Positions 3,978-60,630 of a stretch of 64,000 bases of DNA are shown piece after piece; within the stretch, counting starts at the first letter, position 1, and each line of letters starts with the position of its first letter. The notes under the pieces are model-generated. The model worked only from the letters and a program-made list of their open reading frames with translations, ran no database searches and was not told where the DNA came from. The translations under genes and the position numbers were made by a program. The DNA is from Symbiodinium sp. CCMP2592 (lineage: Eukaryota; Sar; Dinophyceae; Suessiales; Symbiodiniaceae): positions 496,329 through 560,328 of the forward strand of contig CAJNDT010000001.1 in the NCBI GenBank assembly GCA_905221615.1. Reading direction: 5' to 3'.

Positions 3978-4075
3978 ACATGACGGTTATTTTGACACTC
4001 ACACTCGGACAAAGCCTGGCAAGGTCTGCAGCGATACTGGTCTCTCTCGTTAACAAGGCTCTTCACATGACGGTT
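3978..4075 (-). mobile_element. Short insertion with 11-bp target duplication, beside TTTAGGG
   Basis: ACATGACGGTT occurs at 3978-3988 and again at 4065-4075. The enclosed 76 bases begin ATTTTGACACTCACACTCGG. Read on the minus strand the insert ends in GTGTCAAAAT, a weak A-rich tail, which suggests retroposition in that orientation. TTTAGGG units start immediately after the second direct repeat. Confidence 0.7.
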
Positions 4076-14863: not shown

Positions 14864-14972
14864 TTATACGGTTCAGGCATGTTTAGGGTTTTCGAAGTAT
14901 AAGGTTGAGGTCCAAGGTTTACAGGGCTTCCGGTACATTGGGATTTAGGGCTTAGGGGCTTACAAACCCTAA

Positions 14973-15084
14973 ACTTGTAAAGAAACCCTTTTTTGCAGCA
15001 GGCCTCCTTGCCCAGCAGCCCGGTTACACTTGTAAGAAACCCCTTTTTTTGAACCCGGGCTTGCTGGCTGCCAGTAAGAAACCC
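14973..15084 (-). mobile_element. Array of two nested A-tailed insertions sharing target duplications
   Basis: Three direct repeats occur: ACTTGTAAAGAAACCC (14973-14988), ACTTGTAAGAAACCCC (15028-15043) and GTAAGAAACCC (15074-15084), each followed by a T-run. The first insert begins TTTTTTGCAGCAGGCCTCC and contains CAGCAGCCCGG. The second begins TTTTTTTGAACCCGGGCTTG. A third T-run with TACACCTGGACTACGCA follows without a visible closing repeat. On the minus strand each insert ends in an A-tail. Confidence 0.75.
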
Positions 15085-15610
15085 TTTTTTACACCTGGAC
15101 TACGCACCCCTAACCCGAAGCCCCAACCTCAAACTCTAAACCCGAAACCCTCAGCCTGCCTCGCCCTAGGGCCCAACCAAAACTAGGAGCCGTTTCTTGT
15201 AACTCCCCCCCAAGAAGGGGAGGCAGATCTGTGCCTCTAGAAAGGATACTGGACCCAAAACTGAAATAATGAAGAATGCAGAAGCCGGCTGGCCGGGATT
15301 TGAATAATCAGTCAGAATTCGTTAGGGAGTTTAAGTGGTTCTTCAATGTGGGTACTATTATTACATATTGTTGCGGACCTTGAAGGGGGCCCGAAAACGG
15401 ATGATCTGTACTAGTACAGGCTGAAACTATTACAGTATGTTCTGGTATTCTTGCGTTACTGCAGTCTTCTGGTAGCTTTTGGCAGCTGTCACAAGTCTTA
15501 TAGGGTCGCTTGAAAACCGACAGAGCCAAATCCAAAAGGTAAGAGCCGTCAGTCCTAAAGCATGAACAAAAGCTCAAAGCCTAATCCCCGTATAACGTAC
15601 GATTCACCCC

Positions 15611-15657
15611 GCTTTCACCCTTTTTTGCAGCAGGCTTCGTTGTCCAGCTTTCACCCT
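15611..15657 (-). mobile_element. 25-bp A-tailed insertion with 11-bp target duplication
   Basis: GCTTTCACCCT at 15611-15621 and 15647-15657 flanks TTTTTGCAGCAGGCTTCGTT plus GTCCA. It is the shortest member of the group sharing the GCAGCAGG 3' end (minus-strand sense), which suggests strong 5' truncation. CCCTAAACC units follow. Confidence 0.8.
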
Positions 15658-18216: not shown

Positions 18217-20479
18217 ACCGTCTCTGGGATCCAAGCAACGGCTTCGGAGCCCGCCTCCTTCGCCTGCGAGGTTTCCGGATGGTTTAGGGTTTATAGGGTT
18301 TTGTCCCTCCTACCTAGCATGGACAAAAGCCGGCATATAGGGTTTAAGGTTTATAAAGTGTTTATGTCATTTGGCTTAGTGAAGCATTTTGGTTTTGAGT
18401 GACTTTGGTTCTGCTTTGGGAGTCAAGCGTTTAAAGTTCTAGAATTGGGTAAACATCAGCGTGCACACCCGCAGGACTATCGATCAAAGGATGCTTCGCG
18501 TTTCCGCTTCAAAGGAGCACGCGCTTCAGGTTTGGAGAACCACTTAAGCCCTTTTGCCTAAACCCTGAGCCAAATTCTACGTTCTAAGGTCCCAAGAAGA
18601 TCTGCTCATCTGCGCGTCCAGTCCTTTCCTGCTCCTAAACCCTATAAACCCTAAGAACTAGGGTTGGGGGGGCCAAATCCCAGGAGTCCAAAACCGCCAA
18701 GCCCAACTCCACCCAAAACCGCCAAGCCCAACTCCACCCAAAATCCCGGATCCAAGACTGCGCTCAACTTTGGCCCCCACCCTTCGTGAGTCCTAGCTCT
18801 TTTGGCTCCCTGCCGTGAACTTAGTTTGAGTTCAATGCAAGTTCCTTGATCTTGGGTTGCGCTAAATGAAAATCAGTGAACTTAGTTTGAATCCAATGCT
18901 CATATCTTAACACTTGTAAGCCTCAGCCCCGAACACTTTGATTGCTGAAGCCCAAACCTCAAACCCAGAAAGCTCGTACCCTCAACCCCGAAGTCTTTGC
19001 AAACCCTAAACCCTTTTTTCCCTAAGACCCAAAAACCCTAAACCCTAAAGCCCCAAAGCCCAACCTAATGCCTAAGTCTAAGTATCCCTAAAGACCGAAG
19101 ACCTCAGGTACAAGGTTCCGAAACTCCAGAAACTCCTTCCAGAAACCCGAATTAGGCCTGACATCTTAAACCCACAACCCCCTAAATCGCCCCAAAATCC
19201 CCGAGACCCTTTCACCATGGATCCCTTATAGAACCTTTGCGGAGACCTTTGATGAACCCGAAACCCTAAACCCCTAAGCCCTAAACCCTAAAACCTAAAT
19301 CGTTACGAAACCCTCGGGAAGGCCAGCTGCTGCTCGTAGGCGAACCTCCCAGCGAGCGTGCAGCTAAGAAGGGATGGGAGTGTACTTGGAGGATCAGGGG
19401 ACTTAGTGAGTAAGGTTGTAAGCACTCTAATTGGGGTTATAAGTAATTATGAGTATAGTTACCTTGTATATATGACCCTAGTTACTACGTCCCATGCTCC
19501 TTGAAGTATCGCCTCTTGCTTAGGGATTATGGTCCAGGGGCTAGGGTTTCAGCACTCACACTCGGACAAACCTTGGCGAGGATTCTTGGACAGCACTTTG
19601 GCGGAACCCAGCACATTAGCCAGGGAAACAGGGTTTAGGGTTTAGGGCTTAGGATTGTGGGTTTAAGGTTTTACGGCTTAGGTTACTACATCTAACTTTC
19701 CCTACAACTTCCCCTACCTATTGCAGAATGACTCATTACCATGAGACCTATGTGCTGTTTTCTCAAGCGAGCAATCCCTACACCCAAGCACGGCACAGAA
19801 CCTCGCTGAGCCTTTTGTAGGGGCCGTCATAATTGCAATAGCTTTTGGGATGCATGGTACTCCCAATTATACGAGGAATGCAGAAAACAGTACTGCAAAT
19901 CATTGAGGCGTCTGCATTACGCCGCATATACCACGAGCACTCACCAATCTGCCCGAAAACAACAGCACTTCCCAAAACCCTTTACCCTAAACCCTAAACC
20001 GTGGCATAGAGGCCTAGCTAGTCAGACCGAGGTGTCGGCTAAGATATATAAGCGTCAGACAGACAAATTTAGCTAGCCAGTCAGTTGCTTGGATAGATGA
20101 CGGATGGGTAGGACAGAACGAAAAATGCATACAAAAACTTCTAGATACATAGACAGGTCGAGAGCTAGATAGACCGATCACTGAACCTGCATGCTTTTGA
20201 ATCTGCAAAATGTGCACTGCTATGCCTCATGCTTGCGTCCCCTATTTGGACCTTAAAGCCATAAACAAGAAAGGCGTTGCAGCGCCGAATTCCCAAAAAT
20301 GGAAACGTCGAGCCGGTTATGCATCCCTAAACCCTTGTTTCTAGCCAGGCATCCCTAAACCCTAATCCCAGTACCCTATAAGACAAAAACGCAGGGCACT
20401 TCGACCCAAGAGCCTCAAGAGAAAACATCGGGGCTAATGGTTAAATTTTAAAATGTCCCGAAATTAAACCCTCAGCCCC
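18217..20479. other. Unassigned telomere-like and repeat DNA
   Basis: Mostly CCCTAAA/CCCAAA-type sequence (18550-19310), plus a direct repeat of AAACCGCCAAGCCCAACTCC around 18689-18740, IR-A copy 2 and the dispersed CACTCACACTCGGACAA element at 19553. No gene was recognised. Confidence 0.65.
19384..19507. mobile_element. MITE-like inverted repeat, family IR-A copy 2 (diverged)
   Basis: Starts ACTTGGAGGATCAGGGGACTT and ends ACGTCCCATGCTCCTTGAAGT. The terminal 25 bases match IR-A but the interior has diverged strongly, so this is an old or distinct subfamily member. Confidence 0.75.
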
Positions 20480-20570
20480 AAGCCGAACCACCCTTTTTTG
20501 CATCAGGACTTGTGCAATCGCCTGAACACTGACTTCCACAATGCAAAGAATTTGAAAGCCGAACCACCCT
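20480..20570 (-). mobile_element. 61-bp A-tailed insertion with 15-bp target duplication
   Basis: AAGCCGAACCACCCT is repeated exactly at 20480-20494 and 20556-20570. The enclosed segment starts TTTTTGCATCAGGACTTGTG on the plus strand, so in minus-strand sense it ends CACAAGTCCTGATGC followed by an A-tail. CCCTAAA units start directly after the second copy. This is the clearest target-site duplication in the window. Confidence 0.85.
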
Positions 20571-31869: not shown

Positions 31870-32559
31870 GTATAGTTAAGTTTCATGAAATTCTGGGCGG
31901 GTAAGCAGCGCTTCGGTAGAGGTTTCCCATGGGGTTCTCAAGGGTTTGAGATATGTGCCTGAACAATCAGAATTGGGGGCTTGGGTAATTACCTTATGGT
32001 GAAGCTGTGAATGTTCGTAGGACAGGCCCCTTAACCCTTGAGAAGCAGGCCGCATGGTTTTCAATACTGACTTGTCCTAACCCACCACGACCTAGTTTCG
32101 CTGCGTAGTTCCCAATCATGTCTGGACTACAGTAGTCGTTATACTAAGTCCCTACGTTGTGTGTACTTTCATGTTAATTTAGAGACCAACACAAGAGTAG
32201 CTACCGCCGGGTTCTTACAACGGCTAATGTGCAATGACATGTGTGATGATACTGGGACGGTTCGCTTCGCAGGAGGTCCAAACTTTTTTGAAGGTATAAC
32301 GAAGATCTTGCAGCTTAATCACTCCCTTACTTCAAGACGTACAAGCCCGACCCCACACATATCCTCACCATGAGCTGCAACAAGTTGTGCACTTCGCAGT
32401 GAAAACCCCTGGAACTCCCCTCACCTTTGGACCCAAAAGCCCTCAATTCGCTCTTAAACTCGCTCTTAAACCCTCCCCTAACTTACTTTTTACACCTGGA
32501 CTACGCATATGCCAGGAACCGCCCCCCTAATTTCCTAAACCCCTAACCCGCTCCCGCTC

Positions 32560-33220: not shown

Positions 33221-33320
33221 TAGCCAAAACCCTTTTTTGAATCCGGTCTACGGCGACTCTACCGGGTCCGCCCTCAAGCTGCTCATGAGGAACGACTAGT
33301 TGAAACATAGCCAAAACCCT
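33221..33320 (-). mobile_element. A-tailed insertion with 13-bp target duplication
   Basis: TAGCCAAAACCCT occurs at 33221-33233 and 33308-33320. The insert (74 bases) begins TTTTTGAATCCGGTCTACGG. AAACCCTAAAC units follow the second copy. Confidence 0.8.
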
Positions 33321-34289
33321 AAAACCCTAAACGCCCAATCCCTAAACCCCTATAAACCCCTTAACCCCAAAGCCCTAAACCCCTTAAACCCCAAGACCCT
33401 ACACCCCCTAAACCCGTATAAACCTTGAAGCCCCGCAGAGAATCTCCGGTCCGGCCAGGAGTGTTTGCGCCTGGGCAGTGCCCAGGCTTAGCCGGACCCG
33501 CATGCTGGGAATCACCAGCCTCGGCGTAAGGGACAGGGTTGTCAGGGTTTAGGGCTTCGGGGCATCCATGAAGGGTGTAGGGCGTACTGAGAATTCGAGA
33601 CTCAGGGCTTACAGGGCTTGGGGAATAAACGCTCACTATATAAGGTTTATAGGGGGCTGAGGACTTGAGGATTAATTAACGGCTTTTGGCTCAGGGTTTA
33701 GGCCAGGCTCAAGTATTGCGACCTACTGTCGGTGATTGTGCGAGCCATTCTGGGTCGTTGAATCTTCCCGGCGTGTTGACCTCCTGTTTGGAGCTGTGGC
33801 TTTGCATGATATCTTTCTGTCTTCTCGTTCTTCTTCTAATTGTTAGTTATTCATTAGTATTACTATCTACTGTTCATTACTCCTCTTCTCATGGCTGTTC
33901 TGGTGACGAACCGGCCTTCTACTCCTTCTGTTTCAATCCCTTGTATTGCCAGCAGTAGCGATAAAGCTGCTTGGCATCGTGGCAGTTGCAATTGCTCCTC
34001 ATACTCCGGGTAATTACTGTGATATGATGGGGATCACACGTTTCTGCGAGTAGGCTCTGTGCCAGGTTCTCATGCTGTGTGCTAGCGGAAGCGCTACGAC
34101 CTACTTACACCTTCCGTGGCCTCAGAAGCGTCAACCTTCGAGTTGCGGAAAGATGGCAAAAGCCGCAACTGCCTGTTGAAGCGTAAAGCCGCGAACTCTA
34201 CATCCTATAGCTAAGAACATGATGGCCGCCCCTCAAAGGTATCCCTAAGCATCCCAGCGCCCGGCTTGTAGTTGTGGGAACCCTCGGAG
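33321..34289. other. C-strand telomere-like DNA, then unassigned sequence
   Basis: 33321-33425 is CCCTAAA-type. 33686-33958 holds a plus frame with a hydrophobic run (LCMISFCLLVLLLIVSYSLV) at about 33805-33870, but its codon use is AT-rich and nothing supports a gene. Confidence 0.5.
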
Positions 34290-34347
34290 GGAACCCTTTT
34301 TGAAACAGGCATTCCACTTCGCCCGGAGTTGCTCCGGAAGGAACCCT
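34290..34347 (-). mobile_element. A-tailed insertion with 8-bp target duplication
   Basis: GGAACCCT at 34290-34297 and 34340-34347 flanks TTTTTGAAACAGGCATTCCA and about 20 further bases. CCTAAACCC units follow. The short repeat lies within GGAACCC-rich DNA, so chance is possible. Confidence 0.5.
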
Positions 34348-34379: not shown

Positions 34380-35104
34380 AAGGGTATCAGGAACCCTGAA
34401 AGGATCCCTACATCCGGGAGCCCGAAAGCTTCTTGAAGGAACCCTAGTAGCCCGTAATACGGACCCTTTCAAGGAGCTCTTAAACAAGAACCCTTGCCCT
34501 GAATCCGAAAAGGAGCCCTAAACAGCGCTCCTTGAAAAAGCCCTAAAAACTTCTTAAAGGAGCCCTTGAAGGGAACCCTAAACGGCCCAAAGCCCTAAAC
34601 CCTTAAAAAGGAACCCGAAGCAGCCGAAGAATCTGGGAACCCTTTAAAGGAGCACTTTAAAAGAGGCCCTTAAAGCCAACCCTAAACCCCCAAAGCGTTC
34701 CGAGCCCTAAACAGCCCTAGAGCCTGAACCCCGTGAAAGCAACCCTAAACCCTTCAAGGCAACCCCAAAAAACCTGAAAGGGAGCCCTAAAAAGCAGCCG
34801 AAGAACTCTAGGAGCCCAGTCAAAGGAGCTCTTTGAAAAAGCCCAAAACCTTTAGCCCTTATAGGTTCCTTTATTCCTTTAAGGGCTCCTCTAAAAGGGA
34901 GCCCTCAAAAAGACAGCCGAAGAGCTCTGGGAACCTTTTAAGGAACTCCTTGAATTCCTTTCTTCCTTTAAGGGTTCCTTTAAAAGGGAGCCCTTTTTTG
35001 CCGCAGGCCTCGTTGTCCAGCAGCCCGGTTACAGCAAGAGCCCTTTTTCCCCCGCTTAAAAGGGAGCCCTCAAAAAGCAGCCGAAGAGCTTGAAGGTCTG
35101 CCAC
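34380..35104 (+). repeat. Degenerate repeat block (GGAACCCT, AGCAGCCGAAGA)
   Basis: Variants of AAAGGAGCCCTTAAAGGG alternate with AGCAGCCGAAGAGCTCTGGG, seen near 34620, 34795, 34910 and 35080. Two parallel segments at 34867-34905 and 34955-34993 share TTCCTTTAAGGG and TAAAAGGGAGCCC. The 86-codon plus frame and 77-codon minus frame inside it are repeat translations. Confidence 0.75.
34988..35048 (-). mobile_element. 39-bp A-tailed insertion with 11-bp direct repeats
   Basis: GAGCCCTTTTT at 34988-34998 and 35038-35048 encloses TGCCGCAGGCCTCGTTGTCC then AGCAGCCCGGTTACAGCAA. The body matches the inserts at 14989 and 15622, differing in length at the end away from the T-run. Confidence 0.75.
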
Positions 35105-37143: not shown

Positions 37144-37201
37144 GAATGCCCTTTTTTGCACAAGGACTTGTGCATACCCGCCTGGATCTCTCAGAATGCC
37201 C
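37144..37201 (-). mobile_element. A-tailed insertion with 8-bp target duplication and terminal hairpin
   Basis: GAATGCCC at 37144-37151 and 37194-37201 flanks TTTTTGCACAAGGACTTGTG and about 22 more bases. In minus-strand sense the insert ends GCACAAGTCCTTGTGC (a perfect 7-bp stem) followed by the A-tail. CCCTAAACCC follows. Confidence 0.7.
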
Positions 37202-37218
37202 CCTAAACCCTTTCTTTA

Positions 37219-37252
37219 AGCACGGACTTGGAGTGTATGCCGGCAGCGAAGC
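37219..37252. repeat. 34-bp repeat identical to 59010-59043
   Basis: Starts AGCACGGACTTGGAGTGTAT and ends GGCAGCGAAGC. It is preceded by TTTCTTTA and CCCTAAACCC. The identical block at 59010 is also preceded by a T-run after CCCT. Confidence 0.85.
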
Positions 37253-37348
37253 TCTAGGGCAGAGCCTTCCTGAGTCACCTTAGGAGACCTCGGGGATGCA
37301 CACATGAGCAATGCAAGAACGATGAGAACCACGAACGAGTGATGCATA

Positions 37349-39957: not shown

Positions 39958-40968
39958 TCAGCAGTCCTGTGTAGGGTCCTCGAAGATTTCGATGACGTCC
40001 TGTTCATTTGCCTTGCGTGGACTGAGAGCGAGTGCCTGTCTGAGAGTGAGCTGGCGGAGGCGGGGAGGTTCGACCCCCTGTGCCCCATGCGTAGTCTCAC
40101 AGAATAGGGTCCGGGTGGGCATGTGAAAACCTAACTGCAGTAGCTGTTCTTTAACATCCGGTTCCAGCGTGGCCGCGCCCAGGGTGCTGAAGGCCACAAG
40201 GATGACCCTATTCCTAGCCGTTTCAGGGTTCAGGACATGGCCCGCATGAAGAACCTTCCTAGCATTAAACAGGAACGGAGAGGATAGGTTGACTACTGTT
40301 CCAGCGAGGTCTAGGTTTTGGTATTCACGGTACACTCTCCCTACTCTATCCGCAATCCAAAGGCCTTCGCCGTCTTTACACTCAGTAAGCGAGATGATCC
40401 ATGAGTTCAAGGGCCCATTACGGATGTCGCGATGAACCTTGTTTGTGCAGCCCCTACGGAGGACCCACGTGCTGTATGGGTGCATGGGAGATACAGTACG
40501 AATAAACCGGTTAACAAGCATGGTCATGTAGGGCATTTCGGTACTAAAATTAAGGACGTGTTCCCTGGACCGAGGGCTGGCCCCGCTCACAAGGTAACGC
40601 GTATCCAAACCACCACGTTTCATAAAGTTGCGGGGGTACATGTTCAGCAACCCCAACACGTCTCGTTTAGTGGGGGGCTGAATCCTATTCAGCAGCCTAA
40701 CCGCAGAAAATTCAATGTCCCGAAGCAGTGGGTCCTGAATAAACCCACAATCCGGTAACCTGGGGCCCGACTCCGGTTGGGAGCCATCGGTAAGGATGGT
40801 GCATTCTGCATCGACTTCAACCTGAGTGCTATGCGAGTCCTCCAAGTCGATGGGCAGACAAGCGAGGGGCGGGACAGGTTTGGGACACGGTTTGGGAAGG
40901 CTTGCATCATCATCTACTGTCAGGTCTTGCACCTGAGTGGCAGTCCTTAGCTCACATGCAAAGGCCAT
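39958..40968 (-). CDS. 2-oxoglutarate/Fe(II) dioxygenase-like protein, 336 codons open
   Basis: An ATG-initiated minus frame of 336 codons. Residues 160-260 carry the double-stranded beta-helix signature: H179-x-D181 in CTNKVHRDIRNGPLNSWIIS (metal ligands), GEGLWIAD (residues 200-207), a distal His at 241 or 244 in KVLHAGHVLN, and R254 in ARNRVILVAF as the likely 2-oxoglutarate anchor. These are established features of the 2OG-Fe(II) superfamily, whose members oxidise proteins, nucleic acids or small molecules. A segment after the fold, VKEQLLQLGFHMP, is recalled (unverified) from dinoflagellate proteins with this domain, some of them linked to transposable elements. The N-terminal 90 residues are Pro/Asp-rich and low complexity. 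The frame continues upstream without interruption except for TGA at 41008-41010 and 41215-41217, so the ATG at 40966-40968 may be internal to a longer, now broken protein. The substrate is unknown. Confidence 0.7.
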   Translation of the reverse strand: MAFACELRTATQVQDLTVDDDASLPKPCPKPVPPLACLPIDLEDSHSTQVEVDAECTILTDGSQPESGPRLPDCGFIQDPLLRDIEFSAVRLLNRIQPPTKRDVLGLLNMYPRNFMKRGGLDTRYLVSGASPRSREHVLNFSTEMPYMTMLVNRFIRTVSPMHPYSTWVLRRGCTNKVHRDIRNGPLNSWIISLTECKDGEGLWIADRVGRVYREYQNLDLAGTVVNLSSPFLFNARKVLHAGHVLNPETARNRVILVAFSTLGAATLEPDVKEQLLQLGFHMPTRTLFCETTHGAQGVEPPRLRQLTLRQALALSPRKANEQDVIEIFEDPTQDC

Positions 40969-41010
40969 GGTGCTACGTCCGTTGGGCTGCTCCAGTTGCT
41001 GTGATCCTCA

Positions 41011-42233: not shown

Positions 42234-42430
42234 CGTCGCGAAGCTGAGCCTGCTGCTTCCCCTGAGTCACTTTCCACGGCAGCAATGAAATCCTCAGTAG
42301 ATCGAGAGAGGGCCTCGAAGAACCGATTAGGGTTCTGAAGGATTGCCTCAATGGTGGACGCCAGCCAATGTTCTGTGATCAGGGTTATTCCCTGATGGAC
42401 TCGCAGAGGCGTCTCGTCACCATCCCTCCG
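42230..42430 (-). pseudogene. Continuation of the 414-codon gene in the -1 frame
   Basis: At about 42408-42430 the reading moves from PLYGGMVTRRLCESIRE (which stops at 42385) to the -1 frame. That frame is open for more than 60 codons, with strong protein character: DGDETPLRVHQGITLITEHW, ILQNPNRFFEALSRSTEDFI, ending GSASRR then TGA at 42230-42232. The switch falls in GGAGGGAT, which is not a canonical slippery heptamer, so a one-base loss is more likely than programmed frameshifting. Confidence 0.55.
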
Positions 42431-43629
42431 TAGAGGGGCGACTCTTTTGTGCCCATTTGATTCTGCCTCTTAGCTTGCTCCCTCACCGCCACCTTCGAAG
42501 CCTCTGTTGCAGCGTTGCCACTGACGTCGATAGCAGACTCGACACGTTTCTGCAGAGCTTCACGAATCGGTGGTACCAAAGGAAGCATCAAGAGGCTCGG
42601 CACCGGTAGACTTCCGTCTAGGGATTTGAAGAGCATCCCCAGTTCGGGGTATGCGCCTGCCACAGTATTGGCTGTGGTGAGCCTTCCCAGTCTTGGATCG
42701 TTGTTCAACTCTTTGAATAATTTTGCAGAGTTGACCAAGACGCTCTTGGCGCTTTGGGAAAATTTGTCCTCTTTCATGCCCATTGAGCCCTTGGAACTGT
42801 TTTTGGTCCCGTACATCGAAGAGGCCAAGCAGAAGCCCAGCGCTCGAATTGTCATTCTGCGCTCTTCCATTGCTGCTGTCCTGAATTGCAATGGCGAGCC
42901 TCCAGAATACAACCATTCTGCATCCAACTGTATGTTGGACTCTGCTGCAGCTTCTGACAGCGCTCGAAAGAATGAATCCAAACGACCCATTTCTAAATCC
43001 ACGTGGCAATTGATGCTGCCTCCGGGTTGTGTGCGGATGAAGAGGGCAATTGACGATCCGAAACGAAGGTCTTTGCCTTGAGCCCAGTCTGTCACCAAGC
43101 GAGAGTTGTAGAGGAACTTTCCCACCAACAAGCGTAGGCTTCCGATCCTTTTGTCTAGGTAAGCTCTGAGATGGATGCCTGTGAGAAACTCAGCTTCCGG
43201 GATGAACCAGATCTTGCAGTTTGACTGGTTGTAGTTGAAGAAAGCTTTCTTGTCTAGCTTCCTGTCGTTGGCAAGAGTCAAGACATTAGTCTTGACTAGT
43301 GCCCAGCAATTGTCCTTGGTCGGCGGGATTTGGCGAGGTCTGAAATTCAGCCAATTTTCAAGGGCTAGTGAAATGAATGCCTCCTCCAGGATCCACAAGT
43401 ACGACTCTTCCAAGCTGTCAGAGGGCTCCCCGAGGTGGTCCTCTTCGCTTCCAAAGTGGAGTCGCTTAAAGTAGCGCCAGGCCGCCCCTCGGTCTCGATG
43501 ATTGAGATGAGGGCGCGGGAAGTTCCTGATTCCCTTTGTGAACTCCGAAAGCAGGCAAGCTTGGTTGGAATCCAGGCACAGCCCCGGAACTCTTGGTCCT
43601 GGGAGCGGAGACCAGTAAGATTCTGACAT
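42385..43629 (-). CDS. Spliced-leader-tagged gene, 414 codons, unknown dinoflagellate protein
   Basis: The longest open frame of the window starts at ATG 43627-43629, 15 bases after a near-perfect copy of the dinoflagellate spliced leader. That fixes this start and implies the locus derives from a mature trans-spliced mRNA. Features: Trp/Arg-rich N-terminus (RGAAWRYFKRLHFGSEEDH, about residues 48-66); FRPRQIPPTKDNCWALVKTN (97-116); a mixed domain with FIPEAEFLTGIHLRAYLDKR (142-161) and FIRTQPGGSINCHVDLEMGR (203-222); then a helical, Lys/Ser-rich C-terminal third. No signal peptide, membrane segment or catalytic motif was recognised. The printed end (stop at 42385) is probably an artefact of a frameshift. 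An accessory or gag-like protein of a retroelement is one possibility, given the neighbouring broken frames on the same strand, but nothing in it proves that. Confidence 0.75.
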   Translation of the reverse strand: MSESYWSPLPGPRVPGLCLDSNQACLLSEFTKGIRNFPRPHLNHRDRGAAWRYFKRLHFGSEEDHLGEPSDSLEESYLWILEEAFISLALENWLNFRPRQIPPTKDNCWALVKTNVLTLANDRKLDKKAFFNYNQSNCKIWFIPEAEFLTGIHLRAYLDKRIGSLRLLVGKFLYNSRLVTDWAQGKDLRFGSSIALFIRTQPGGSINCHVDLEMGRLDSFFRALSEAAAESNIQLDAEWLYSGGSPLQFRTAAMEERRMTIRALGFCLASSMYGTKNSSKGSMGMKEDKFSQSAKSVLVNSAKLFKELNNDPRLGRLTTANTVAGAYPELGMLFKSLDGSLPVPSLLMLPLVPPIREALQKRVESAIDVSGNAATEASKVAVREQAKRQNQMGTKESPLYGGMVTRRLCESIRE

Positions 43630-43644
43630 GCGATCCGGAGTTGC

Positions 43645-43664
43645 CTTGAGCCAAATGGCTACGG
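43645..43664 (-). other. Relict dinoflagellate spliced-leader sequence (DinoSL)
   Basis: On the minus strand CCGTAGCCATTTGGCTCAAG equals the conserved dinoflagellate spliced leader except for one missing T in the T-run. It is directly followed by a 15-base 5' leader and the ATG at 43629. Telomere-like TTGAGGGTTTAGGG adjoins its 5' end. A leader in genomic DNA at the 5' edge of a gene is the accepted mark of a retroposed mRNA. Confidence 0.9.
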
Positions 43665-43751
43665 TTGAGGGTTTAGGGATTGTGGTCTTTCTTTTGCCTG
43701 TCGCCTTTGCTTGCGTCCTGTCCCGTTTTACGGTCTAGGGAGTTAGGATTA

Positions 43752-57100: not shown

Positions 57101-57171
57101 CTCATACCATGCCCTTTATTCAGCACGGACTGAGGTGCCGGCCAGCGCCCACAAAACTCATACGATGCCCT
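57101..57171 (-). mobile_element. Insertion with 15-bp target duplication (14 of 15)
   Basis: CTCATACCATGCCCT at 57101-57115 and CTCATACGATGCCCT at 57157-57171. The insert begins TTATTCAGCACGGACTGAGG, related to the AGCACGGACTTGGAG repeat at 37219 and 59010. CCCTAAACCC follows. Confidence 0.8.
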
Positions 57172-59009
57172 AAACCCTAAACCCTAAGTTCAGGCCCAAG
57201 GAGCTTTGCCCACAACTGCTGATTCTTGCTTCGGGCCTTCCTTGGCAACAAACAAACACCTAAACATAAACCTTCGAAGCGAACATCCCTACAGCGGGGC
57301 TGCCTTCGATAGTTCATCTGTTCTTGCCTGTCTGGGCCCCAAGCAGAGGCCACTGCAAACTCAGGTGGCCGGAGACCCAAATGTTTTCAGATAGTCGGGT
57401 TTGGGCTTCCTTTTACATAGGGTTGTCAGCTTGGGGCGTAAGGCAAGATATAGTGATCCCCATCAGGGGCACCTTAGACTTGTTTAGAGCCCCTGAAACT
57501 CTTGAAAGCAATATAGAATCCTCTAGGGGGATGTCAGAAGAAGCACATAAATACAAACAACTGAAGCCTGCCGTGTCCAAACAAGGACATGCCTTGCCTA
57601 CGTCGACTTCATCGATTTTCTTCAGTTGGGACCATAAGACTCTGCACTTACGACGTAAGTTTTAGGCTGCTTCCATTTGGGGTGCTTTTGAGGGCCGAAT
57701 CCCCAACCCGATGCACCCTGAAGCACCAGAACCATCCCTGAAACCAAAAAGTCTACTGAAAGGCTTCTAGGCCCAGTATCAAAGAGGCCAAGGCAGCCTA
57801 GCAGTCCGCCGTAGGAAGGGGGTGCATGACCTCCCCATGGATGGAAACAAAAGCTTCTTGCGCCACGTTCGTTGGGGAGAATTTATGGTTCTCGATCCAT
57901 GGGATGAGAAATTTGGGTGGTGGGGTGGGGGGCAGGATGCTGGGCGTTTTCCGGGTTTAGGTTTGTATGATGGGTGGTATTCTCTCGTGCTTGGGAACCG
58001 GCAGACATGGCTTCAGCTCGGTTCGGAAACACGTTGGCAGCTATGTCGCAGTCCATTGTGCAAGCTGCACAAGCCTCAAACAAGAAGTGAAGTGCCGTGG
58101 AATGTTGATCCACTCGGGGTGATGACTCATGCAGTAGTGCGCAGTCATTCACCAATTGACCGAGCATCATGTGCTAAACTACAAGCAGACCAGCAGATCG
58201 GAGACATACTGCATAATATGACATCTAGTGCAAAAAAAACATGCAGTTGGTCCGTTTCGTGCCCGTGCGTGCATGTACGCCCTGAGATTCACATATCTGT
58301 CTGTCTGGCTGTATTTATGTTTGTAGAGTTTACACATTCGCATGTCAGCATGGAAATGAGGAAGTAAGAAAGCACGTGAGCAAGCGAGTGAGTCGGTGGG
58401 CAGGTGGGTGTGTAGGTGGGCGGGTGAGTGAGCAAGCCGAGCAAGCAAGTACGTAAGTGAGTCAGTAGGTACGAAACCCTAGAGGTCTAAGGACTCATGT
58501 ATTAAGGCTTTTGGGTCCAAAGACCATACTATATAAGGCTTTTGAACCATTCTGATCCCTAGGGAAAGTGTTTGGGCAAGGAGCAAGTGAGCAGGTCGGC
58601 AAGCAGGTCAGCAATGAATGAAGGATACTGAAGTGGGTACAATGACAGACTGAGTCTGAGCGAGTGAGTCCAGAATGCACGCTGTGAAAGCATGTGTAGC
58701 CACCTGCCGTACACGAGACTATGCTGTAGGCATGGGATATTTTCGCATGCGTTGCCTGATGCATCTGCTAGCTCATGAATGATACCCCTCGAACAGGCTA
58801 ATCGCGATTGCTTGCAATGTTTCGCAAGAGTCCGCGCATCGGAATCTCATGCCGGGTTTGTCCAAACCAAGGCGCCCGCATCCGCAATCAAGAACCCGAA
58901 ACCCCAGATCCCAAAACCCTCAACATATTAAAGCTGAAGCCTTATAATCCTGAAACCCGAGAATCTTGGAACCTAAGGCATTCCAAGCCGCCTAAAGCCC
59001 TTTTTTTTG
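57172..59009. other. Unassigned DNA
   Basis: 57822-58367 holds a 181-codon plus frame whose first half contains Trp/Gly-rich text (GWWGGGQDAGRFPGLGLYDG) and whose second half looks random. I see no family and doubt it is a gene. 58370-58450 and 58560-58620 are GTGAGTGAGCAAG-type repeats. Confidence 0.45.
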
Positions 59010-59043
59010 AGCACGGACTTGGAGTGTATGCCGGCAGCGAAGC
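59010..59043. repeat. 34-bp repeat identical to 37219-37252
   Basis: Starts AGCACGGACTTGGAGTGTAT, preceded by CCCTTTTTTTTG and followed by GCCCTAAAACC. Read on the minus strand it ends TCCAAGTCCGTGCTC plus an eight-A tail, so it is another A-tailed insert; its target duplication is weak (AAGCCCT versus AAGCGCCCT). Confidence 0.8.
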
Positions 59044-60630
59044 GCCCTAAAACCTAAACTCTAAAACCCTAAAGCCCTAAACCGTTAAACCCTGACAGTG
59101 ACCGTTATTGAGATTGAGAACCCTATCGAAACATTCCGAAAACCCTGGCACGACAAAACCCCTCGACCCAGAGGCTGGCACCATCCAGGGCGAAGACATT
59201 GTTGAGCTCGATGAGGACATCTATCGCTGCCTGTGGACTGTCCTGTCGATGTAGGGTTTGGGGTTCCAGGTTTTAGACTTAGAGTTTAGGGACTGAGTTT
59301 AGAGTTTAGGGTTTTAGACTTAAAGTTTAGGGACTGAGTTTAGGGTTTACGGTGATTATCATTCTTTGGTTGGAACTGATAAGAACGGAAATGGATGAAT
59401 CATCCTTCATGCTTCAAGCGTACTGAAGCGAAACCCAAATTCGATCCATGATGGCTGCATGCCGAGCCACGGTCCATTTGAGAACAGCCTTGCCCCAGCC
59501 CATCCGGGCATTGTTATGCAGTTCGCCTGCGTCGTCGGTATACATGACTGCTTCAAAATTCATCTCGGTGGTTCACTGCCTTAACAGAAGCCTGCACAGT
59601 TAGACTGGGGCTTCTCGGGCTTCTGTACTACACAAGTGGTCTTACAACAAGCACTAGCAAACCTGATAATTAAGCCTTAAGGAATGGTGTGCCTTGGTCT
59701 TTTGATCTTTAAACCCTGTAAACTCGAACCAGTGATCTCAATCTCAACCACCCTTCAAAACATCGGACCTAAATCCTAAACCCTCTAGCAGCTCTGCCCG
59801 AAGACATGGTAAACAAGTCTTCTAACCAACTTCCTGAGCCCGACGCATCTGTCGGAAGTATTGGGCAAAGGTCCTACCAAATGCGGGATGCAGGACCTGG
59901 GTGATCTGAGTTTTGCTTTACGGCGCGGGGCCTTTCTTTTGGGTTTAGGTTGGGTGCTTCTGTCTCCTCTTTTTCTGCGATCTACGTGTGGTAAGCCCAA
60001 ACTTGCAAGGCTTGGTTTGCTGAACTCCTAGAAACCCTAAATTCTTAAACTCAGAACCACTAAACACTAAACAGCTGAATTCCTAAACTCAGAACCACTA
60101 AACTGTACGTCACTAAACCGCTGAACAATAGTAACCTACTACGAAGCTTCAGGGTTATGGCACTACATCTCAGGGTCCACACCCGGAGAGCGTCAACGCA
60201 ATACAACAATCACGATGTGGGTTCTTGGATTTCTTTAGTATATCCCTGCGAAACCCCACATTAGGCCTCGGGGCTTAAAGGCCATAACACCAAAAAAAAA
60301 GACTAAATGCGCCGCCTGTGTCCACAAGATACTGCTGCATGCCATCCCAGGCAGCATTGCCCGACCGCGCTGCTCGAAGCTGGTGCACTGGGATGACCTC
60401 GCTTGTACTTCTATGTCTCGGAATTAAGTGCTTCAGGTAGCGCAACGAGAGACGGCGAGCGAGAGAGGGAGAGTGTGCGGTTGATGCTTCAGGCATTCTA
60501 GGCATTCAGTTTTTCCGCTTGATTACGAATGCGAGGGCACTCAGTACCTTCCGCACCGGAGGGAGTGCTGCTTGAAACTCTTCCGGCCCCTACATAAAGC
60601 TCCTTTTCTGCAGGCTTGCATGCAAGGACT
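59044..60630. other. Unassigned DNA with telomere-like tracts
   Basis: 59044-59092 is C-strand and 59246-59355 G-strand telomere-like, the latter a local duplication of GTTTTAGACTTAGAGTTTAG variants. Minus frames at 59785-60000 (basic, Lys/Arg-rich) and 60275-60505 (VIPVHQLRAARSGNAAWDGM) are conceivable exon pieces but unsupported. 60055-60115 repeats CTAAACTCAGAACCACTAAA. Confidence 0.45.

Follow-up and report, generated by a model that had tools for sequence, protein, structure and literature searches.

Short inserts at telomere-like sites in Symbiodinium: probable 5'-truncated LINE copies oriented with neighbouring genes

What are the short segments that sit between direct repeats next to CCCTAAA units in the genome of Symbiodinium sp. 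CCMP2592, and how did they get there? The question arises from a site at which two identical 15-mers (AAGCCGAACCACCCT) bracket an insert that starts with TTTTTGCATCAGG. It lies in the stretch of 64,000 nucleotides that was analysed as a whole and is referred to as the window in the following (C1:496329-560328), inside a 4.0-Mb contig of a 1.098-Gb assembly. A preliminary description had listed nine such sites and ascribed them to target-primed retroposition of small RNAs. Inspection of the sequence bears out its central observation, an exact duplication of 15 bp on either side of a 61-bp insert with a T-run, and the same layout recurs at eight of the nine listed sites (Table 1), with duplications of 8, 11, 13 and 15 bp, within the 8-16 bp that had been stated. 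The exception is 3978, where an 11-bp duplication (3978-3988 and 4065-4075) comes without a T-run like the rest and abuts TTTAGGG, the opposite strand to the other sites. Telomere-like units, said to lie beside nearly all duplications, follow the second copy at seven of the nine sites; none adjoins the site at 34980, where the second copy continues with CAAAAAGC, and none stands at the right end of the one at 14973, which has CCCTAAA directly on its left (14967-14973).

Table 1. Target-site duplications (TSDs), inserts and LINE tails in the window; a slash between two sequences marks a junction.
Feature	Position	Strand	Details
Target-site duplication, left copy (..CCACCCT)	20480..20494	+	exact 15-mer, repeated at 20556-20570
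fam2 retroposon tail, 61 bp	20495..20555	-	A-tail on minus strand (T-run on +)
Target-site duplication, right copy, then AAACCCTAAAACCCTAAA	20556..20570	+	
Insert chain at one apparently re-used target	14973..15151	-	tails from 14990 (fam1), 15043, 15086
fam1 LINE tail	15611..15657	-	25-bp insert 15622-15646, 11-bp exact TSD GCTTTCACCCT, then AAACCCTAAACC
Insert	33221..33320	-	74 bp (33234-33307), 13-bp exact TSD TAGCCAAAACCCT, then AAAACCCTAAAC
Insert	34287..34347	-	39 bp (34298-34336), TSD 10/11 (34287/34337), then CCTAAACCC
fam1 LINE tail	34980..35070	-	61-bp insert 34995-35055, 15-bp exact TSD TTAAAAGGGAGCCCT
Weakly fam2-like insert	37144..37201	-	42 bp (37152-37193), 8-bp TSD GAATGCCC, then CCTAAACCC
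fam3 LINE tail	37208..37260	-	at next telomere unit, CCCTAAACCC/TTTCTTTAAGCACGG
Insert (57116)	57101..57171	-	15-bp TSD CTCATAC[C/G]ATGCCCT, one mismatch, then AAACCCTAAACCC
fam3 LINE tail	58998..59045	-	8-T run after CCC; duplication extent ambiguous

The simplest reading would be that these direct repeats are products of chance or slippage in CCCTAAA-rich DNA. We searched the window for runs of five or more T's that come after an 8-mer found again 12-130 bp further on, and took 200 Markov sequences for each of the orders 1, 3 and 5 as the null. There are 11 such repeat-bracketed T-runs on the plus strand and 4 on the minus strand, against simulated means of 0.10, 0.19 and 0.35 (orders 1, 3 and 5) and a maximum of 2, so that the layout is far above chance. 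The second copy is followed by AAA in five cases on the plus strand and in none on the minus strand (simulated maximum 1), and the duplicated sequence ends in CCCT in 9/11 and 0/4 cases, respectively. The four minus-strand hits imply that repetitive DNA alone gives some bracketed T-runs. Among the nine plus-strand CCCT hits, two belong to the chain at 14973, and one, at 19014, lies within a telomere-like array, has no convincing match to any family and is probably a product of repetitive DNA. Telomere-like DNA is, moreover, very abundant: across the whole genome, the 14-mer CCCTAAACCCTAAA is found at 487,741 places (244,814 on the plus and 242,927 on the minus strand), as opposed to 433 (224 + 209) for the reversed pattern, in counts that take in overlapping occurrences and any true telomeres. 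In the stretches viewed, it sits as short dispersed arrays. However, Markov controls up to order 5 yield no more than 2 hits, the duplications are largely unique sequence, and the inserts mostly belong to dispersed families that share a tail. This family membership contradicts chance and slippage, to which we assign a negligible probability.

The inserts share a core 3' of the T-run; in LINE sense it reads about AGYCCnGnnnC, followed by A's, in window inserts and LINE ends alike. The tail pattern CCCTTTTTTGCANCAGG occurs at 74 + 68 places genome-wide, its reverse at none. We sampled the first 20 non-window places among 100 listed of the 142: 11 of the 20 have an exact duplication of at least 7 bp ending in CCCT (L043 and L045 being one sequence), and in 10 AAA comes straight after the best second copy (4-14 bp). 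Taking the best match, insert lengths range from 16 to about 250 bp, the longest depending on matches of 4-6 bp. L043 (C240, minus strand) and L045 (C303, plus strand) have the same insert and displayed flanks on two contigs, reflecting either a duplicated segment or overlapping contigs.

Three window inserts belong to the family fam1, those at 14990, 15622 and 34995, with scores of 58, 39 and 91 against shuffled maxima of 29, 24 and 28. A 97-nt probe from the fam1 tail gave 437 first-look candidates, 40 of which were scored; of the first 21 of these, 20 were examined (the other, on C226, is L042) and four were followed further. The next 110 nt upstream gave 8 matches. The copies extend and stop at many different 5' points. 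Among three of the eight upstream matches, for instance, the stretch shared with L074 stops after about 500 bp in L075 and about 360 bp in L076, while L074 continues, its fam1 tail leading into an open ORF2 of 1110 aa with the Pfam domains Exo_endo_phos (PF03372, 2.3e-11) and RVT_1 (PF00078, 4.3e-17). This ORF2 returned 42 scored matches (from 1823 first-look candidates), including open frames of about 1100 aa at 30-42% identity. PF03372 was matched by 10 of 11 endonuclease segments, and E45, D168, N170, D244 and H245, which we take to be the catalytic residues, are invariant in their alignment. A search of solved structures with one endonuclease alone returned only matches with E of at least 0.77; with the 11-row profile it returned nucleases of the same superfamily, e.g. 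ExoIII, APE1 and DNase I. With one ORF for endonuclease and reverse transcriptase, an A-tail, TSDs of variable length and 5' truncation, the element has the features of an APE-type LINE. Likewise, the two fam3 tails of the window, at 37210 and 59001, are the 3' end of the LINEs L101-L103, which have an open ORF2 and one of which lies on the same contig (C1:834814). Their scores to the 3' end of L103 are 78 and 68, against shuffled maxima of 27 and 24; the 25-mer of the latter is at C1:555338, and 75 places of fam3 were collected from the genome. The fam1 and fam3 inserts are 5'-truncated tails of APE-type LINEs.

The small-RNA source that had been proposed thus falls for both families: fam1 is the 3' end of an open-ORF2 LINE with scattered 5' ends, and fam3 is a LINE 3' end as well. 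The other part of that proposal, target-primed insertion with an A-tail and TSDs next to CCCTAAA, is supported by the tails, duplications and junctions. We had also considered a full-length small RNA of ~95 nt as the source of fam1 and dropped it, as longer copies run into ORF2. The insert at 20495, of which the first 27-55 bases match copies such as L045, L043, L064 and most of L077-L096, belongs to fam2, as does, weakly, the one at 37152 (score 26, shuffled maximum 23). fam2 is a repeat family of the same build, whose longest copies agree over about 230 nt only; matching of a fam2 peptide to the C-termini of LINEs found no parent element (best score 37, shuffled maximum 44). The inserts at 33234, 34298 and 57116 have no match above shuffles to the sampled LINE ends; the second has a related stretch in the flank of L068 and the third a 24-bp exact relative in that of L090. 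Might the inserts then, if not all of them at least fam2 and those without a family, derive from small RNAs or mini-SINEs retroposed by LINE machinery that they recruit through a shared 3' end? The lack of a fam2 parent, the limited agreement of its copies and a tail motif beside the A-run that is common to many unrelated heads speak for it. It is nevertheless unlikely: the fam1 tail leads on into a LINE with an open ORF2 and that of fam3 is part of such LINEs, the 5' ends of fam1 are scattered and its long copies reach ORF2, where a SINE has a fixed 5' end, and no Rfam family reaches the gathering score in the window. ARAGORN, run with the bacterial code, found no tRNA there either. The build, tail and target of the insert at 20495 suggest a LINE source, and fam2 and the unassigned inserts as a whole probably have a source of the same kind.

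Three further groups of sequences deserve mention. In the chain at 14973-15151, three retroposon-like tails share target copies (about GTAAGAAACCC) that begin at 14973, 15028 and 15073, as if each insertion had re-used the target left by the previous one. Apart from its fam1 member, the second tail scores 36 to L109 (shuffled maximum 24) and the third 34 (shuffled maximum 32), too close to the shuffles for an assignment; the third has a 15-bp relative at 32493. A small family, TTTTTACACCTGGACTACGC, is present at 15092-15110, at 32493-32507 and in the flank of L035, preceded by a T-run as in other inserts. Finally, a repeat CACTCACACTCGGACAA is found near 3993, 19553, 35209 and 52669 and in L095, adjoining TTTAGGG-like runs, with a sense opposite to that of the inserts. 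Within 3978-4075, it is enclosed by the 11-bp duplication. It is possibly a further family with a different cut.

The junctions with the target are displayed by the LINE 3' ends. At 12 of 18 of these, from 7 families (L097/L099, L098, L100, L101-103, L104, L105/106 and L109/110), 4-9 A's are joined straight to GGG, in several cases followed by TTTAGGG. Together with L074, the junction typical of telomere-specific LINEs (T/A insertion, A-tail joined to AGG(G)) is found, though not as an absolute rule, in eight families, of which seven have a full-length open ORF2; L105 and L106, which look alike over the printed stretch, match ORF2 from residue 271 on only. L107, L111 and L112 (C5294, C3334 and C424; the latter two are one family) end in ..GAGTCCGTG against a TGAGAGAG run, as if these sister LINEs targeted GA microsatellites, a target switch within one LINE group. 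L108 ends near a GA-rich stretch, and for L113 and L114, of a distant LINE group, the fetched stretch stops short of the 3' end.

When copies are picked by tail similarity alone, CCC precedes the T-run in 15 of 20 for fam1 and 12 of 20 for fam2, compared with 41/1170 and 40/576 background T-runs, respectively; the other 5 and 8 copies have no CCC at the junction. Target specificity is strong, not absolute, with exceptions such as L043/L045 at CCCCCT/CATTTGG and L067 in (CTA)n. A clear duplication is seen in 36 of 72 sites, a set in which 32 (12 window sites and L030-L049) had been selected in ways that favour CCC, by pattern or by reading, and a few are counted twice; 17 of these 36 continue with AAACC or AAAACC. 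The remaining 36 show no clear duplication, perhaps in part since copies run past the fetched stretch. The positions C, C, C and T before the nick are conserved at 83-94%, the empty-site consensus is CCCT^AAACCC, and telomere units lie mostly on one side, the duplicated side being largely unique. As far as sequence can tell, these junctions point to CCCT^AAA as the place of the nick. A natural empty site is provided by L045, whose insert splits CGGGCCCCCT/CATTTGGCGA, while two neighbouring units of the tandem array carry CGCCCCCTCATTTGGCGA intact; for the site at 20480, a genome query gave both flanks and six partial matches (82-87% over about 46-55 bp) and no empty paralogue.

We therefore consider it highly probable that the inserts are 5'-truncated copies of dinoflagellate APE-endonuclease LINEs, for which telomere-like DNA is the site of target-primed reverse transcription. 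The LINE endonucleases presumably make the nick themselves: they would cut the C-rich strand at CCCT^AAA (TTT^AGGG in the complement), and the ..CCCT end would then prime on the LINE RNA at its A-tail. Copying would halt early, in many cases at about 20-120 nt, and the second, staggered cut would leave the duplication, mostly 8-16 bp and ending in CCCT.

A further regularity, which the preliminary description did not point out, is the common strand of the inserts: the tail pattern has 11 hits in the window, every one of them on the same strand. To follow it along the genome, we merged the first 100 of the 142 CCCTTTTTTGCANCAGG places with two further sets of 40 listed places into 172 sites. 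Neighbours less than 300 kb apart are on the same strand in 32/32 pairs, and in 60/60 after the 75 fam3 places are added; the agreement is 11/13 at 300-600 kb, 4/5 at 600 kb-1 Mb and 1/5 beyond 1 Mb. As gene markers, we used three Pfam families: kinases were searched first, ion-channel and ankyrin families once the pattern had been seen. All ten kinases within 300 kb of the 172 sites are co-directional. With all sites, LINE sense equals gene strand within 200 kb in 13/14 cases for kinases, 9/10 for ion channels and 9/9 for ankyrins; this pools to 31/33, or 27/28 when one is counted per insertion (p about 2e-7), and drops to 5/7 at 200-300 kb and 12/19 beyond. Genes agree in strand with each other at 30-200 kb in 19 of 23 cases. 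Given that LINE sense and the neighbouring gene strand agree, the inserts follow unidirectional gene blocks. Same-group ORF2 copies with a marker within 200 kb agree in 5/5 cases (6/6 before one that had been compared with its own tail was dropped), two of them, on C432 and C358, being incomplete copies, and a distant LINE group agrees in 7/8, three of the eight lying on one contig within 15 kb. Weaker support comes from relics of the 21-mer of the dinoflagellate spliced leader, which is found at 217 + 212 places of the whole genome (reversed control 0) and so marks the genome as that of a dinoflagellate: from the first 100 of these 429 places, 14 of 18 run with the gene block within 200 kb. 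Within the window, the long ORFs 39958-41007 and 42385-43734 lie on the minus strand, as the strand of the inserts predicts for genes; the eight window ORFs searched, including these two, have no Pfam match.

The strand of the inserts could merely follow a local strand bias of the CCCTAAA targets, as a strand-specific nick would turn a biased target into biased inserts. However, the window contains 114 CCCTAAA on the plus and 121 on the minus strand (15 and 17 for the 14-mer), yet 11/11 tail hits are on the plus strand, in what is one block with known inserts. Six other 10-kb loci with more than 20 telomere-like units have mixed strands as well, which leaves this account very improbable. Strand statistics for the 14-mer were not drawn from the listing, in which all 100 matches are on the plus strand, although loci sampled from it contain minus copies.

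Selection is a more serious contender: antisense copies may be purged. Read with transcription, an antisense copy shows a pyrimidine run followed by AG (CCCTTTTTTGCAG/CAGG), a ready acceptor for cis- or spliced-leader trans-splicing; the disfavoured strand reads TTTTTTGCAG in fam1 and TTTTTTGCATCAG in fam2. Retroposons of the SIDER type in the directional gene clusters of Leishmania are about 4:1 sense, according to the available text of PMC2689281. On the other hand, the bias here is near-complete even for short stubs without promoter or gene, and the distant LINE group leans likewise. Alternatively, the strand may be fixed at insertion, which would then be one-sided relative to gene blocks: LINE sense would equal gene direction, and so the nicked strand would be the transcription template strand. 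The nick might occur only on the template strand of a unidirectional gene block, or on a strand exposed by a co-directional replication fork. We hold both accounts, purging and a lock at insertion, as tentative and about equally plausible. As very short stubs without promoter or gene are equally one-sided, we lean slightly towards a bias that arises during insertion, by coupling to replication or transcription, rather than by selection alone. If the lock is real, each telomere-like site would be open to insertion on one strand only, and tiny dead stubs would show which way transcription or replication runs along the chromosome.

Silkworm telomeres are the best-known home of telomere-motif LINEs; here several LINE families show the same kind of junction at scattered telomere-like DNA along the chromosomes of a dinoflagellate. 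The near-perfect match between insert strand and gene direction is unusual and would provide a DNA-only marker of gene-block direction; it also allows a choice to be put to the test, between a coupling of retrotransposition to transcription or replication and the purging of antisense copies. Among the matches listed, the titles and abstract openings of the literature contained no description of telomere-motif LINEs or of LINE orientation in dinoflagellates, and for 'DinoSINE' nothing apparently related. New here are the dinoflagellate host, the interstitial telomere-like targets, the sister families at GA microsatellites and the strict orientation.

LINEs of the R1 clade have an ORF2 with a C-terminal CCHC zinc knuckle; a simple pattern search found no C..C-H-C in the ORF2 of one element, L074. 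SART1 and TRAS1, telomere-repeat LINEs of this clade in Bombyx mori, also combine an endonuclease with a reverse transcriptase and are directed at the telomere motif of their host. In both systems, AGG(G) directly follows the A-tail, whereas the nick is TT^AGG there and would be TTT^AGGG here. The poly(A) of SART1 abuts AGG, and its insertion depends on repeats on the upstream side of the nick, as stated in the available part of PMC7265360, and the telomere units here are mostly on that side, too. By contrast, the sampled targets here are interstitial telomere-like DNA, the sampled copies lying inside contigs and not at chromosome ends as for TRAS and SART, and 5'-truncated stubs dominate. The LINEs described here appear to work like TRAS and SART, a likeness of function and junction that does not imply a placement in their clade.

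Within the Symbiodiniaceae, LINEs account for 13.36% of the S. microadriaticum genome (PMC8110479) and have been characterised as strongly diverged, probably left over from an ancient expansion (PMC8045281); the available portions of both accounts contain no mention of target site or orientation. Of the elements studied here, several families keep open ORF2s and share a telomere-motif junction and an orientation. Unidirectional gene blocks are known from S. microadriaticum, where chromosome domains follow the direction of transcription (PMC8110479, in the part available). The introners of the dinoflagellate Amoebophrya resemble the inserts in being short, repeated and accompanied by direct repeats; they have inverted repeats and direct repeats of 3-5 nt at exon borders (PMC7789003, available text), whereas the inserts here have an A-tail, duplications of mostly 8-16 nt and, for fam1 and fam3, LINE parents. 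The SIDERs of Leishmania, lastly, combine their overall sense excess with antisense copies that are more than 3-fold commoner in the spacers between polyadenylation and trans-splicing sites (PMC2689281, same text); in the dinoflagellate, by comparison, inserts and genes agree in direction almost throughout, at telomere-like targets.
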